A DNA stretch of 64,000 nt from NCBI GenBank assembly GCA_021793235.1, contig JAJYTD010000013.1, positions 1 through 64,000 on the forward strand. Direction: 5' to 3'. Source of the stretch: Actinomycetes bacterium. GTDB taxonomy: Bacteria > Actinomycetota > Actinomycetes > Streptosporangiales > Streptosporangiaceae. The notes beneath the pieces are model-generated. The model was not told the DNA's origin, did no database searches, and worked only from the letters and a program-made list of their open reading frames with translations. The translations under genes were made by a program, and so were the position numbers. This document shows positions 23,552 through 29,425 of this stretch, piece by piece (the first letter of the stretch is position 1; the number at the start of each line of letters is the position of its first letter).

Positions 23552-24433
23552 TCAGCCGACGGTGTGGTCGGCGACGGCCCGCAGAGCCGTGCGGGCGGCA
23601 CAGATCGCCGGGTTGGTCTGACTTCCCCGGCGGAAGCCGAGGTGGATCGTGCGATGGCTTCCGCTGGGTGCCAGAGTGCAGCCGGTGGCGTGGGTGGAGG
23701 CGAGAGCAGGCAGGAAGGCGACGGCGTGGGCCTGGGCGACGAGGCGGGCGTGGAGGAGGACGTCGATGGATTCACAAGCGATGTTCGGTTCGAACCCGGC
23801 GGCGCGGCAGGTGGCGACGGCCCAGTCACGTGATCGTGTTCCGGGCGGCTCCATGGCCCAGCGCGCCTGGGCGAGCTTGGTGAGCACGACCGGGGATGTG
23901 CCGGTGGGAGTGGCGATGAGCATGGGGTCATCGATGAGGTGCTCGGTGATGATGTTGGCGATCGGCGCCACGGGTGCTCCGGGGTACTGCTCGTAGAGGA
24001 CCAGGTCGACCTCGCGCGCGAGCAGAGCGGGCAGGGCATGCTCGGCGTGGACGTGCCGGAAGGTGACCTTGACGTGGGGGCGGTCGCGGGCGAGTAGGTC
24101 CAGGGCGGTGGGGATGAGGGTGTGCGCGGCGCTTTGGAAGGTGGCGATGCGGACGTGTCCGGAGATCTCTGCGCTGGTGAGGGCGATCGCCGCTTCGGCT
24201 TGTTCGAGTTCGAGCAGGATGCGTTCGGTGTGGTCGACGAGGATGGTGGCGGCATCGGTGAGTCGGACACGTCGACCGACCGGTTCGAGCAGCGGCGCGC
24301 CGACCTCGCGTTCCAGGAGCGAGAGCTGGTGCGAGATGGCCGAGGGGCTGTAGCCCAGGGCTTCGGCGACGGCCGCCAGGGTGCCGCGGTGCTTCAGCTC
24401 ACGCAACAGGCGTAGGCGATGCAGATCGTACAC
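23552..24433 (-). CDS. LysR family transcriptional regulator
   Basis: 293 aa. The N-terminal winged HTH reads LHRLRLLRELKHRGTLAAVA, EALGYSPSAISHQLSLLE. The effector domain begins near residue 90 (GHVRIATFQSAAHTLIPTAL). It is divergent from the catabolic operon at 24550, with a TATCGAT inverted repeat between them, so it is the likely substrate-responsive activator of that operon. Confidence 0.9.
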   Translation of the reverse strand: MYDLHRLRLLRELKHRGTLAAVAEALGYSPSAISHQLSLLEREVGAPLLEPVGRRVRLTDAATILVDHTERILLELEQAEAAIALTSAEISGHVRIATFQSAAHTLIPTALDLLARDRPHVKVTFRHVHAEHALPALLAREVDLVLYEQYPGAPVAPIANIITEHLIDDPMLIATPTGTSPVVLTKLAQARWAMEPPGTRSRDWAVATCRAAGFEPNIACESIDVLLHARLVAQAHAVAFLPALASTHATGCTLAPSGSHRTIHLGFRRGSQTNPAICAARTALRAVADHTVG

Positions 24434-24464
24434 ACCCCACCAACCGTTCGATTCTTTTCATGAG

Positions 24465-24490
24465 TATCGATGAGAAGCATGCTATCGATA
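24465..24490. promoter_or_regulatory. Inverted repeat between LysR gene and catabolic operon
   Basis: TATCGAT at 24465-24471 and ATCGATA at 24484-24490, perfect 7-base arms separated by 12 bp. The spacing and position fit a LysR binding site. Confidence 0.55.
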
Positions 24491-24549
24491 AAAGGGTTGC
24501 CCACCCGTAGCGTCGAGGCGCCAGAACCCTTGGATTTGTGGAGCGTGCG

Positions 24550-25845
24550 ATGGCCGACACCCTGTCTGTTGGTTCCACGAGCTTGACGCTGAGTATTGAC
24601 GCCGATCGGTTGTGGTCCTCGCTGATGGAGTTAGCGCGCATCGGCGCCTACGAGGACGCCGCGACCGGTCTGGTCGGGGTGAATCGACAGTCGTTGACCG
24701 ATGCGGACGCCGAAGGGCGGCGCTCGCTCATTCGGTGGATGCGCCAGGCCGGGCTGGAGGTCACGGTCGATGAGATGGGCACGATCTTCGGCCGCCGCGA
24801 GGGGAGCGACCCCGAGCTCGCCCCGGTGATGGCCGCTTCCCACATCGACAGCGTGGCCACCGCCGGTGCCTTCGACGGGTGCCTGGGCGTACTCGGTGCC
24901 CTGGAGGTCGTCCGCAGTCTCAATGACGCGGGTATCACGACACGACGCCCGCTGGTGATCGCCGCGTTCACCGAGGAGGAGGGGGTACGGTTCGGCACCG
25001 ACATGCTCGGCTCCGCCGTGGCGGCCGGTCGTTTGACCTTGGAGTATGCCTACGACCTGACCGACGCGGACGGGCTTCGGTTCGGTGACGAACTGGTGCG
25101 GATCGGGTTCAAGGGGGGCCGTCCGGCGCGACTCGCCCCACCGCATGCCTACGTGGAATGCCACATCGAGCAGGGCCCTGTGCTCGCCCAACAGGGGTAC
25201 GCCATCGGTGTGGTCACCGGTGTACAGGCGATCTCGTGGCAGAAGATCACGCTGCACGGCAGGTCCGCGCATGCCGGCACCACCCCGACCGAACTGCGCA
25301 TCGACGCCGCTTTGGCGGCGGCACAGATCGTCATGCACGTGCGCCAGATGGTGGATTCCGGACGGTATGGGCGGCTACGTGCGACCGTGGGGCACATCGA
25401 CACCTTCCCTGGCCTGCCCAGTGTCGTATCCGAACGTGCGGAGCTGACTGTGGACCTGCGCAACCCTGACGATGGGCACATGGCCGCCGCCGAGGCCGAC
25501 CTGGCCGCCTTCCTCGCACGGCTCCCCGAATATCAACCGGGCCTGTGTGTGCAAACCGACAGGATGGCCCAGACGGACTCGGTGCCTTTCGACCACTCTC
25601 TCCAGGACACCATCGCCGCCGCGGCCAAGGACCTCGGCCATGCGACCACGCGCCTGATGTCCGGGGCCGGGCATGACGCCCAGGAGATCGCCGCGATCGC
25701 CCCGAGCGCGATGATCTTCGTGCGCGGGCAGTTCGACGGGATCAGCCACAATCCCCGCGAGTACTCCACGCCTGAGGACTGTGCCGCCGGTATCGCCGTG
25801 CTGGGCACTACGCTGCTGCGCCTGGCCATGGAGGTTCCGACATGA
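24550..25845 (+). CDS. M20 Zn-hydrolase, N-carbamoyl-L-amino acid hydrolase/allantoate amidohydrolase type
   Basis: 431 aa from ATG 24550 (GGAG 7 bp upstream); a GTG 12 bp earlier overlaps the ribosome site. Metal ligands are visible: AASHIDSV, GAFDGCLGVLGALEV (Asp), FTEEEGVRFG (Glu pair), YVECHIEQGP (His). The dimerisation domain contains LHGRSAHAGTTPT, and a late His occurs in ISHNPREYS. The enzyme removes a carbamoyl (ureido) group from an amino acid, releasing CO2 and ammonia. First gene of a three-gene coupled operon; its stop overlaps the next start by 4 bp (ATGA). Confidence 0.85.
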   Translation: MADTLSVGSTSLTLSIDADRLWSSLMELARIGAYEDAATGLVGVNRQSLTDADAEGRRSLIRWMRQAGLEVTVDEMGTIFGRREGSDPELAPVMAASHIDSVATAGAFDGCLGVLGALEVVRSLNDAGITTRRPLVIAAFTEEEGVRFGTDMLGSAVAAGRLTLEYAYDLTDADGLRFGDELVRIGFKGGRPARLAPPHAYVECHIEQGPVLAQQGYAIGVVTGVQAISWQKITLHGRSAHAGTTPTELRIDAALAAAQIVMHVRQMVDSGRYGRLRATVGHIDTFPGLPSVVSERAELTVDLRNPDDGHMAAAEADLAAFLARLPEYQPGLCVQTDRMAQTDSVPFDHSLQDTIAAAAKDLGHATTRLMSGAGHDAQEIAAIAPSAMIFVRGQFDGISHNPREYSTPEDCAAGIAVLGTTLLRLAMEVPT

Positions 25846-26963
25846 GCGCTCCGTTCTGGAACTCCGCAGCGCGCGGTTGGCGCACCGACCGGATCCGCGG
25901 GGTGTCCGCGTTCCATGAGAACCTGCCGGGCTATCAGCGCACGCGCCTGGTCGAGGTGCCCGCCCTAGCGGCCGAACTCGGGGTGGGCCGGGTGGTGGTC
26001 AAGGAGGAGAGTTCCCGCCTGGGCCTGCCGGCGTTCAAGATGCTGGGGGCAGTGTATGCGATCTCACGCGCGCTCTCGGCACGGTTCGGTGAACCCGATC
26101 GTGCCCTGTCGCTGGAGGAGCTGCGTCGAGCCATCGCCGCGCACGGTCCGGTCGAGTTGTTCGCCGCCACCGACGGCAATCACGGACGCGCCGTCGCGCA
26201 CACCGCCCGTCTGCTCGGCCTGCCCGCACGAATCTGGTTCCCCGACACCCTCACCGGCGAAGCCAAGGACGCGATCGCCGGTGAGAACGCTCAGACGGTG
26301 GAGCTCGCGCTTGCCTACGACGAGGTTGTGGCCGCAGCGGCCCGCGCCGCGCACGAGGCCGGTGAGAGCGCCCTTCTCATCCAAGACACCGCCTGGCCGG
26401 GATACCAGGACATACCGCAGTGGATCGTGGACGGCTATTCGACTCTCTTCGTAGAGGCCGATGCGCAATTGGCCGAACTCGGTATCGACAGAGTGGATCT
26501 GGTGGCCGTTCCGGTCGGCGTGGGCTCTCTCGCTCAGGCCGCGGTGCGCCACTACCGGTCGACCGCAGCCCCCCGGAAGGTGCCTCCCGTCGTGCTCAGC
26601 GTCGAAGCCGCCGCGGCCCCCGCGATCGTCACCTCCCTGCACGCCGACCGACCCGTCAGCGTGCCCACCGGTCGAACGGTGATGTCCGGACTGAACTGCG
26701 GAACACCCTCAGAGATCGCCTGGCCGATCCTCCACGCGGGTCTGGACGCGGCCGTCACGGTCGAGGAGGACGAGGCGATCAACGCCGCACATGCCCTGCA
26801 ATCCGCGGGCATCGATTCCGGCCCCTGCGGTGCCGCCACCCTGCCCGGTGTACGCGCCCTGCTCACTCGCACCCCCGCCCGCGACGCGTTGGAACAAGAC
26901 TCAACGGTCCTGCTGCTGTCCACCGAAGGCCGAGCCGCCAACCCCCTCTCGGAGACACGATGA
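25842..26963 (+). CDS. dpaL: Diaminopropionate ammonia-lyase
   Basis: 373 aa. PLP fold-type II enzyme: LPAFKMLGAVYAISRAL with the Schiff-base lysine at residue 66, the phosphate-side ATDGNHGRAVAHTARLLG, and the C-terminal CGAATLPGVRALL. Beta-replacement relatives such as threonine dehydratase have SxxK-N; the FKMLGA form and the QDTAWPGYQDIPQWIVDGYS block are diagnostic of diaminopropionate ammonia-lyase. It converts 2,3-diaminopropionate to pyruvate and two ammonia. Overlapping starts on both sides imply coupled translation with the hydrolase and the peptidase. Confidence 0.85.
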   Translation: MSAPFWNSAARGWRTDRIRGVSAFHENLPGYQRTRLVEVPALAAELGVGRVVVKEESSRLGLPAFKMLGAVYAISRALSARFGEPDRALSLEELRRAIAAHGPVELFAATDGNHGRAVAHTARLLGLPARIWFPDTLTGEAKDAIAGENAQTVELALAYDEVVAAAARAAHEAGESALLIQDTAWPGYQDIPQWIVDGYSTLFVEADAQLAELGIDRVDLVAVPVGVGSLAQAAVRHYRSTAAPRKVPPVVLSVEAAAAPAIVTSLHADRPVSVPTGRTVMSGLNCGTPSEIAWPILHAGLDAAVTVEEDEAINAAHALQSAGIDSGPCGAATLPGVRALLTRTPARDALEQDSTVLLLSTEGRAANPLSETR

Positions 26964-28123
26964 ACACCACACTCCCGACCACGGACCTCGACGAGGTGGT
27001 CGACCTTACGTGCCGCCTCATCGCCATCGACTCGGTCAACCCCGCACTCGTCTCCGGCGGGGCCGGTGAGGCGCAGATCGCCACGGCCGTCTGTGAGTGG
27101 CTCACCGACCGCGGATTCACCTGCCGGCGTCTGGAAGCCACCCCAGGAAGACCATCGGTGCTCGCCACAGCGTCGGGAACCGGCGGCGGGTCCAGCCTCA
27201 TGCTCAACGGGCACCTCGACACCGTCTCCCTGGCCAGCTACCACGGTGATGGGCTCCAGCCCACGGTCCACGACGGGCGGTTGCACGGGCGCGGCGCCTA
27301 CGACATGAAATCCGGTCTGGCGGCGATGATGGTAGCGGCCGCACGAGCACACCAGAGCCCGCACCGCGGCGACATCGTGCTCGCCCTGGTGGCCGACGAA
27401 GAACACGTCAGCCTCGGCACCGAGGAAGTCCTCCGGCACCGGACCACCGACGCGGCCATCGTCGTCGAACCCACCGGACTCGATCTGGTCACCGCCCACC
27501 GCGGCTTCGTTTGGGCGACCGTGACCGTTCACGGTCGCGCCGCCCACGGCTCCCGCCCCGACCTCGGCCTCGACGCGATCGCCAAGGCCGGACGATTCCT
27601 GACCGCGCTCGACAAGCACGCCGAGCACCTGACGGCCAGGTCCCCGCACCCGAGACTGGGAACGGGAAACCTGCACGCTGGAACGATCACCGGTGGAGCC
27701 GAGATATCCAGCTATCCCGCCAGTTGTGTCATCACCCTGGAACGGCGCACCCTCCCCGGTGAAGGCCCCGCCACGTTCGAACGCGAACTCACCGACCTGC
27801 ACGACAACATCACCCGCACCGACCCGGGCCTGGCCGCCGACATCGAGATCACCACACACCGCCCATCGTTCGAAGCCGCCCCCGACTCGCGGATCGCCAC
27901 CACCCTCTCCAAGGCCTTCCACACGGTGGCAGGACGTGCGCCCACCCGCCGCGGCGAGGCGTTCTGGACCGACTGCGCCCTGCTCGATGAGCGAGGCATC
28001 GACACCGTCATGTTCGGTGTCGACGGGGGCGGCGCGCACGCCGCCGAGGAGTGGGTCGCCATTGACTCACTCCAGACGACCACCACCGTCCTGCACCACA
28101 CCATCGGACAGTACGTCTCCTGA
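26960..28123 (+). CDS. M20 family metallopeptidase (ArgE/DapE/YgeY-like)
   Basis: 387 aa from ATG 26960, which overlaps the lyase stop (ATGA). Zinc-site motifs: LNGHLDTV, GRGAYDMKSGLAAMM, LVADEEHVSLGTE, with dimerisation domain VTVHGRAAHGSRPDLGLDAI and a late His in GGGAHAAEEWV. It deacylates an N-acyl amino acid or small peptide. In E. coli a YgeY-type M20 enzyme sits next to the ammonia-lyase YgeX; the same pairing is seen here, supporting a shared pathway. Substrate not known. Confidence 0.85.
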   Translation: MNTTLPTTDLDEVVDLTCRLIAIDSVNPALVSGGAGEAQIATAVCEWLTDRGFTCRRLEATPGRPSVLATASGTGGGSSLMLNGHLDTVSLASYHGDGLQPTVHDGRLHGRGAYDMKSGLAAMMVAAARAHQSPHRGDIVLALVADEEHVSLGTEEVLRHRTTDAAIVVEPTGLDLVTAHRGFVWATVTVHGRAAHGSRPDLGLDAIAKAGRFLTALDKHAEHLTARSPHPRLGTGNLHAGTITGGAEISSYPASCVITLERRTLPGEGPATFERELTDLHDNITRTDPGLAADIEITTHRPSFEAAPDSRIATTLSKAFHTVAGRAPTRRGEAFWTDCALLDERGIDTVMFGVDGGGAHAAEEWVAIDSLQTTTTVLHHTIGQYVS

Positions 28124-29264: not shown

Positions 29265-29425
29265 ACCCGTGGAAGACGCTGAGCGGAGTCGAGATCGCCA
29301 CCGCCGAGTGGGTGGACTGGTACAACAACACCTGGCTCCACGGTGAGACCGGCCATGTCCCACCGGTCGAGTACGAGGCCGCCCACTACACCCAGAACAC
29401 CCGAAAACCGCAAGTCACAGCATAG
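29265..29425 (+). pseudogene. IS3-family transposase tail
   Basis: The frame KTLSGVEIATAEWVDWYNNT, WLHGETGHVPPVEYEAAHYT, ending KPQVTA and a stop at 423-425, is the classic C-terminus of an IS3-family orfB. Only ~53 codons remain. It belongs to a different IS3 lineage from the copy at 8188. Confidence 0.75.

Follow-up and report, generated by a model that had tools for sequence, protein, structure and literature searches.

The 64,000-nucleotide stretch analyzed here (positions 1 to 64,000 of contig JAJYTD010000013.1, from an Actinomycetes bacterium of the Streptosporangiaceae; hereafter the window) contains an operon in which the gene for a diaminopropionate ammonia-lyase (DAL) lies between the genes for two hydrolases, with a gene for a LysR-family regulator facing the other way. 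Comparison with relatives indicates that the operon is real, conserved and locally regulated, and that it likely encodes two hydrolytic steps. That LysR-controlled reactions converge here on 2,3-diaminopropionate (DAP) is well supported by sequence, because the DAL falls within its family and keeps the catalytic residues, the neighborhood and an operator-like motif are conserved, and RidA and a permease are linked to the genes in relatives. We put the probability at about 0.55 that the operon is self-contained, is controlled by LysR and serves the catabolism of N-substituted DAP. The initial annotation had proposed such an operon for N-carbamoyl- or N-acyl-DAP; its control by LysR and its focus on DAP hold on the grounds just given, and the choice between the two kinds of substrate remains plausible either way, with carbamoyl favored.

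Layout and enzymes of the operon

The window is part of contig 37 of a 4.8-Mb genome in 119 contigs (G000). Three plus-strand open reading frames, all intact, encode in order a HyuC/AllC-type Zn-amidase, the DAL and an ArgE/DapE-type hydrolase of family M20. The divergent LysR gene, the ATGA overlaps and a 7-bp palindrome had been described at these coordinates in the initial annotation, and all are borne out by reading of the sequence:

23552..24433, minus strand: LysR-family regulator, 293 amino acids (Pfam LysR_substrate and HTH_1 above cutoff)
24458..24493, plus strand: predicted operator-like motif, 36 bp (matrix from relatives only; top match of the window)
24465..24471, no strand: left arm of inverted repeat, TATCGAT (sequence)
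24484..24490, no strand: right arm of inverted repeat, ATCGATA (sequence)
24538..25845, plus strand: HyuC/AllC-type Zn-dependent N-carbamoyl-amino-acid amidohydrolase (TIGR01879 and PDB relatives)
25842..25845, plus strand: ATGA stop-start overlap of HyuC and DAL genes (sequence)
25842..26963, plus strand: DAL, a pyridoxal phosphate (PLP) enzyme of 373 amino acids (NF006058 and catalytic residues)
26960..26963, plus strand: ATGA stop-start overlap of DAL and M20 genes (sequence)
26960..28123, plus strand: M20 ArgE/DapE-type metallo-deacylase, 387 amino acids, of a DAL-associated orthogroup (edge of TIGR01910, metal ligands, neighborhood)

The HyuC frame has two candidate starts, GTG at 24538 and ATG at 24550; the latter, which gives a protein of 431 amino acids, is more likely because GGAG lies upstream of it. 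Since ATGA joins the genes at both junctions, translational coupling is likely.

From its sequence, the DAL step of the operon is close to certain. The protein passes the curated NCBIfam model NF006058 (EC 4.3.1.15; 280.1 bits, cutoff 276), and its best solved relatives are the DALs 4d9g and 5ygr. Its residues K66, D111 and D182 align with K77, D120 and D189 of 4d9g, which we take to be E. coli YgeX and in which these residues presumably form the Schiff base with PLP and abstract protons; K66 and D182 are kept in all 69 aligned DAL rows, and D111 in 63 of them. Against the model of the E. coli-type YgeX subgroup (TIGR03528) the window protein stays below threshold (228.6 bits versus a cutoff of 532.25).

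The amidase scores 361.7 bits against the hydantoinase/carbamoylase family TIGR01879 (cutoff 204), and its best PDB relatives are N-carbamoyl-β-alanine hydrolases and N-carbamoyl-L-amino-acid hydrolases. Alignments keep the metal-ligand motifs of the family, SHID, FDG, TEEEG, HIEQG and GAGHDA, together with DLR, which holds the carboxylate Arg. The label "carbamoyl hydrolase" is nonetheless a guess at the level of the family. DAL-linked HyuC proteins fall into separate groups of a tree that needs 3 label changes and whose rooting is unsure, such that one recruitment or several could account for them. The M20 hydrolase sits at the edge of its subfamily (217.1 bits against the ArgE/DapE family TIGR01910, cutoff 217.6) and conserves the metal-ligand positions in alignment; with the YgeY hydrolase model NF009555 it reaches 100.1 bits against a cutoff of 321.

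The LysR-type regulator and its predicted operator

The regulator has both a helix-turn-helix and an effector domain, its gene is divergent from the operon, and the shared promoter region of 104 bp holds the inverted repeat TATCGAT/ATCGATA, whose right arm belongs to an 8-bp palindrome, TATCGATA. To describe the predicted site independently of the window, a 36-bp matrix was derived from the LysR–DAL intergenic regions of 30 relatives (27 strong sites), with the window left out; the consensus of the relatives' motif is TGATGATTATCGCTCGGAAACATTCGCTGGACCGAT. When both strands of the window were scanned with this matrix, the top match was at 24458 on the plus strand (7.3 bits; runner-up 3.1), covering the palindrome at a distance from the LysR start (24 bp) that many relatives share. 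A T-N11-A LysR-type box is present in the window motif and in that of the relatives. Thus, a motif learned from relatives has its best match in the window over the palindrome, which independently supports the link between regulator and operon and indicates that the repeat is more than chance. Strong relatives score 40–62 bits, and the window site is therefore best read as a diverged version of their motif.

In 26 relative genomes, core matches with 0 or 1 mismatch all lie at the LysR–DAL locus, and those with 2 mismatches occur at other places too, at about the rate of a reversed-pattern control. The 24-mer of the window site is single-copy in G000. Because the motif is confined in this way, the regulator looks local and dedicated to the DAL operon, and a larger regulon was rejected on the same counts.

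Conservation of the gene neighborhood

The initial annotation had called for a search for operon conservation. About 60 neighborhoods were fetched, and the counts that follow refer to the 38 loci with a DAL at least 50% identical, a sample chosen by DAL. A LysR gene, its product 43–55% identical to the window LysR, adjoins DAL in 32 of the 38; the same M20 gene is found in 15, and the same HyuC gene in 4. All 4 HyuC loci also carry the M20 gene (chance about 0.02 by hand calculation). This nested pattern, LysR and DAL, then M20, then HyuC, is what would be seen if every hydrolase contributed a single further step upstream. Searches begun from the hydrolases gave a similar association. Among plasmids, 10 of 11 M20 homologs at 48% identity or more lie directly beside DAL, the sole exception (54%) following a three-subunit xanthine-dehydrogenase-type operon on a plasmid of Mesorhizobium WSM4875 (locus L130, 3096–8137). 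In a 396-genome sample of the phylum, 3 of 5 M20 matches and the top HyuC match (56%) adjoin DAL, and the best HyuC match was DAL-linked in both searches begun from HyuC. A search of genome contigs for close relatives returned one distant match only.

Two relatives (G026 and G066) have the same four genes and the divergent operator motif, arranged with DAL first (LysR, then DAL-HyuC-M20), whereas HyuC is first in the window. G334 is organized likewise, with an apparently broken HyuC split over two frames (L100), and Streptomyces NBC_01320 retains a short remnant of HyuC, situated between DAL and M20 (L079, 9062–9306). Because HyuC lies between DAL and M20 in all four, the window order is read as a rearrangement of a recurring gene set; the HyuC step appears to have been lost repeatedly. 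Plasmid pYJN5-2 of Paenarthrobacter sp. YJN-5 carries HyuC, LysR, permease, DAL, M20 and RidA genes, its HyuC, DAL and M20 being 75%, 53% and 57% identical to those of the window; unlike in the window, HyuC there forms its own transcription unit beside the LysR gene, and a permease and RidA are present. In the Paenarthrobacter and Streptomyces versions the linked genes include RidA and an amino-acid permease, for which the closest named models are AnsP and CycA, both below cutoffs. RidA disposes of 2-aminoacrylate. DAL generates this compound in Salmonella (PMC9127364).

Similar sets occur well beyond these relatives. Shinella, Rhizobium beringeri and Acidithiobacillus combine DAL and HyuC with an M20 of a different subfamily in overlapping genes. 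The rhizobial and Shinella DAL-HyuC-M20 operons resemble that of the window in enzyme kinds and gene overlaps, and differ from it in having an Lrp/AsnC regulator and another M20 subfamily; we regard the proteobacterial sets as an independent assembly. A DAL cluster of Rhodovastum has YgeY and a D-aminoacylase, and plasmid pRACO34Ab of Rhizobium ACO-34A has DAL-HyuC-N-carbamoyl-D-amino-acid hydrolase (L131, 4763–13206). In an actinobacterium of another family (G410; L156, 273–7925), DAL and HyuC stand with a D-aminoacylase, an M20, a sodium/solute symporter and GntR. (The ACO-34A cluster also adjoins xanthine-dehydrogenase-type subunits and a gene annotated as histidine ammonia-lyase.)

Proposed pathway, alternatives and relation to uric acid degradation

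The operon most likely takes one or two capping groups, probably carbamoyl, off DAP. From these data we infer a route, along with the compounds it acts on, which hydrolase comes first, what induces the operon and that LysR activates it. The HyuC-type amidase would act on diureido- or N2-carbamoyl-DAP and release the carbamoyl group from its alpha (N2) nitrogen; 2,3-diureidopropionate, for instance, would become albizziin. The M20 deacylase would then remove the N3 substituent of albizziin or of an N3-acyl-DAP to give DAP, from which DAL would eliminate ammonia via 2-aminoacrylate, leaving pyruvate and two NH3. LysR would bind the 36-bp operator in the divergent intergenic region and switch on transcription of the operon in the presence of substrate or DAP. 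We favor a ureido-DAP (2,3-diureidopropionate, albizziin) over an N-acetyl- or other N-acyl-DAP as the probable substrate, mainly because non-homologous enzymes of the N-decarbamoylase type fill the same slots in other DAL clusters.

Several points weigh against this assignment. Carbamoyl substrates cannot be told apart from acetyl or other acyl ones by any feature of the sequence, and at residue 291 of HyuC, within the segment xN[IV][VI]P, the window and Paenarthrobacter proteins have Ser where the other relatives aligned have Asn, raising the possibility that the specificity of the window enzyme differs. The order in which ureido groups are removed is disputed even in the characterized pathway (PMC12990295). 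In the window, the operon has neither a transporter gene nor a source gene linked to it. In addition, many genomes have LysR and DAL only, and free DAP may therefore be the basic substrate. Finally, among specifically named models, the one that the Acidithiobacillus M20 matches best is DoeB2 (N2-acetyl-diaminobutanoate deacetylase; 317.8 against a cutoff of 550), which points to an N-acetyl substrate and keeps alive the alternative that the operon serves catabolism of N-acyl-DAP (acetyl, oxalyl or peptide-derived), with the M20 acting as an N-acyl-DAP deacylase like DoeB2 or ArgE and HyuC as an N-acyl/N-carbamoyl amidase in a related role. ArgE/DapE and DoeB2-like M20 enzymes do deacylate diamino acids, and in 11 of the 15 M20 loci the M20 gene stands beside DAL without HyuC. 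We consider this alternative unlikely, since it leaves unexplained both the recurring N-carbamoyl-type partners of DAL and the HyuC enzyme, which among solved structures is closest to N-carbamoyl hydrolases. (Nothing specific came from the literature on how N-oxalyl-DAP is degraded or on actinobacterial DAL operons.)

The predominance of loci with LysR and DAL only, amid unrelated chromosomal neighbors, would also fit detoxification of free DAP, with both hydrolases as opportunistic additions for unrelated N-capped amino acids; we judge this improbable, as members of the M20 and HyuC orthogroups occur almost exclusively in DAL neighborhoods and both genes overlap DAL here. Degradation of the purine ureide allantoate, with HyuC as allantoate amidohydrolase, is very improbable. 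That name is the best NCBIfam one for the amidase, at 435.7 bits (under the cutoff of 452), and an allantoinase-like gene lies elsewhere in the genome, but the true AllC model (TIGR03176) gives 207.2 bits against a cutoff of 597.75, and linkage is to DAL and M20 rather than to allantoin or ureidoglycolate genes. Moreover, the genome already has another AllC-like enzyme, in an apparent histidine-utilization cluster. (This cluster, on contig 27 [L135, 3051–10330], comprises HutH, HutU, the AllC-like amidase, HutF and HutI, named by sequence reading; it reads as a second use of the HyuC/AllC family in the same genome.)

The preferred reading, sequential removal of ureido groups to give DAP, has a counterpart in E. 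coli. The ygeW-ygeX-ygeY cluster (with hyuA, ssnA, ygfK and xdhD), whose physiology the initial annotation called obscure, is now assigned to reductive uric acid degradation (PMC12507026, PMC12990295). In this pathway of gut bacteria, urate is reduced to yanthine, and ring opening leads to ureidomethylhydantoin and 2,3-diureidopropionate; YgeW or UacY, followed by YgeY, takes off the two ureido groups, and DAL then forms pyruvate (PMC12507026, PMC12990295); the 2-ureido group is cleaved by C. difficile UacY (a D-aminoacylase homolog) or YgeW, and the 3-ureido group by E. coli YgeY, an M20 enzyme (PMC12507026). In the E. coli cluster and, as proposed here, in the window operon, the reactions end in DAL, preceded by an M20 and a second ureido-removing enzyme, with like proposed end products, pyruvate and ammonia. 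The window operon differs in being under LysR control, in lacking SsnA, YgfK, XdhD and HyuA, in having an M20 that is not YgeY and in having a HyuC-type amidase in place of YgeW/UacY. It resembles the final steps of the reductive uric acid pathway standing on their own. The earlier proposal that a carbamoyl hydrolase replaces both carbamoyltransferase and hydantoinase fits YgeW; the hydantoinase step is simply absent.

Indeed, searches of the genome found neither SsnA, the marker of the uric acid cluster (best match 162.8, cutoff 455.5), nor D-hydantoinase (weaker matches only), allantoinase (best 275, cutoff 357.85) or an SbnA-family diaminopropionate synthase (weaker matches only) above curated cutoffs. 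Because all four fall below, the substrate probably comes from outside; with SsnA and D-hydantoinase among them, the operon probably acts on an intermediate taken up by the cell, not on urate. That the host has the whole uric acid pathway was rejected for want of SsnA and D-hydantoinase above cutoff; DAP synthesis by the host and a link to antibiotics, which the initial annotation had suggested as a substrate source, found no support, as no SbnA-family match lay above the cutoff.

It is conceivable, if doubtful, that the operon represents the lower half of the reductive purine pathway in a stand-alone form that is widespread in actinobacteria and was assembled separately in rhizobia and acidithiobacilli. 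This form, with its own LysR operator, would scavenge 2,3-diureidopropionate or albizziin made by other organisms, and the HyuC-type amidase would be a further solution to ureido removal beside YgeW, UacY and YgeY. The analysis offers a testable physiology for a large, unassigned set of DAL genes (106 of the 345 genomes of the order have one at E ≤ 1e-50), a predicted operator that could go straight into a reporter assay, and alternative enzymes for cleaving the two ureido groups, steps whose sequence in the uric acid pathway is in dispute (PMC12990295).

Three further loci were noted. A plasmid of the haloarchaeon Natrinema caseinilyticum (NZ_CP100446, 396849–417977; L200, 8850–29978) carries a cluster with a HyuC-type hydrolase 46% identical to that of the window, an LLM (F420-type) oxidoreductase, a D-aminoacylase, a 5'-deoxyadenosine-deaminase-type amidohydrolase, two molybdenum hydroxylases, a Rid protein, CofC, a threonine-synthase-like PLP enzyme and two purine-type permeases; it may represent an archaeal reductive purine pathway that depends on F420. 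Contig 45 of G000 (L136, 2793–18738) has unassigned catabolic genes that by sequence reading encode an SsnA/guanine-deaminase-like amidohydrolase, a flavoprotein, a cupin, a major facilitator superfamily protein, an MmgE/PrpD-like protein and a dihydropyrimidinase-like protein. Just downstream of the operon, at 29279–29425 of the window, lies a weak remnant of a transposase integrase core (rve_3, 16.8 bits, below the cutoff of 26.5), hinting at past mobility.

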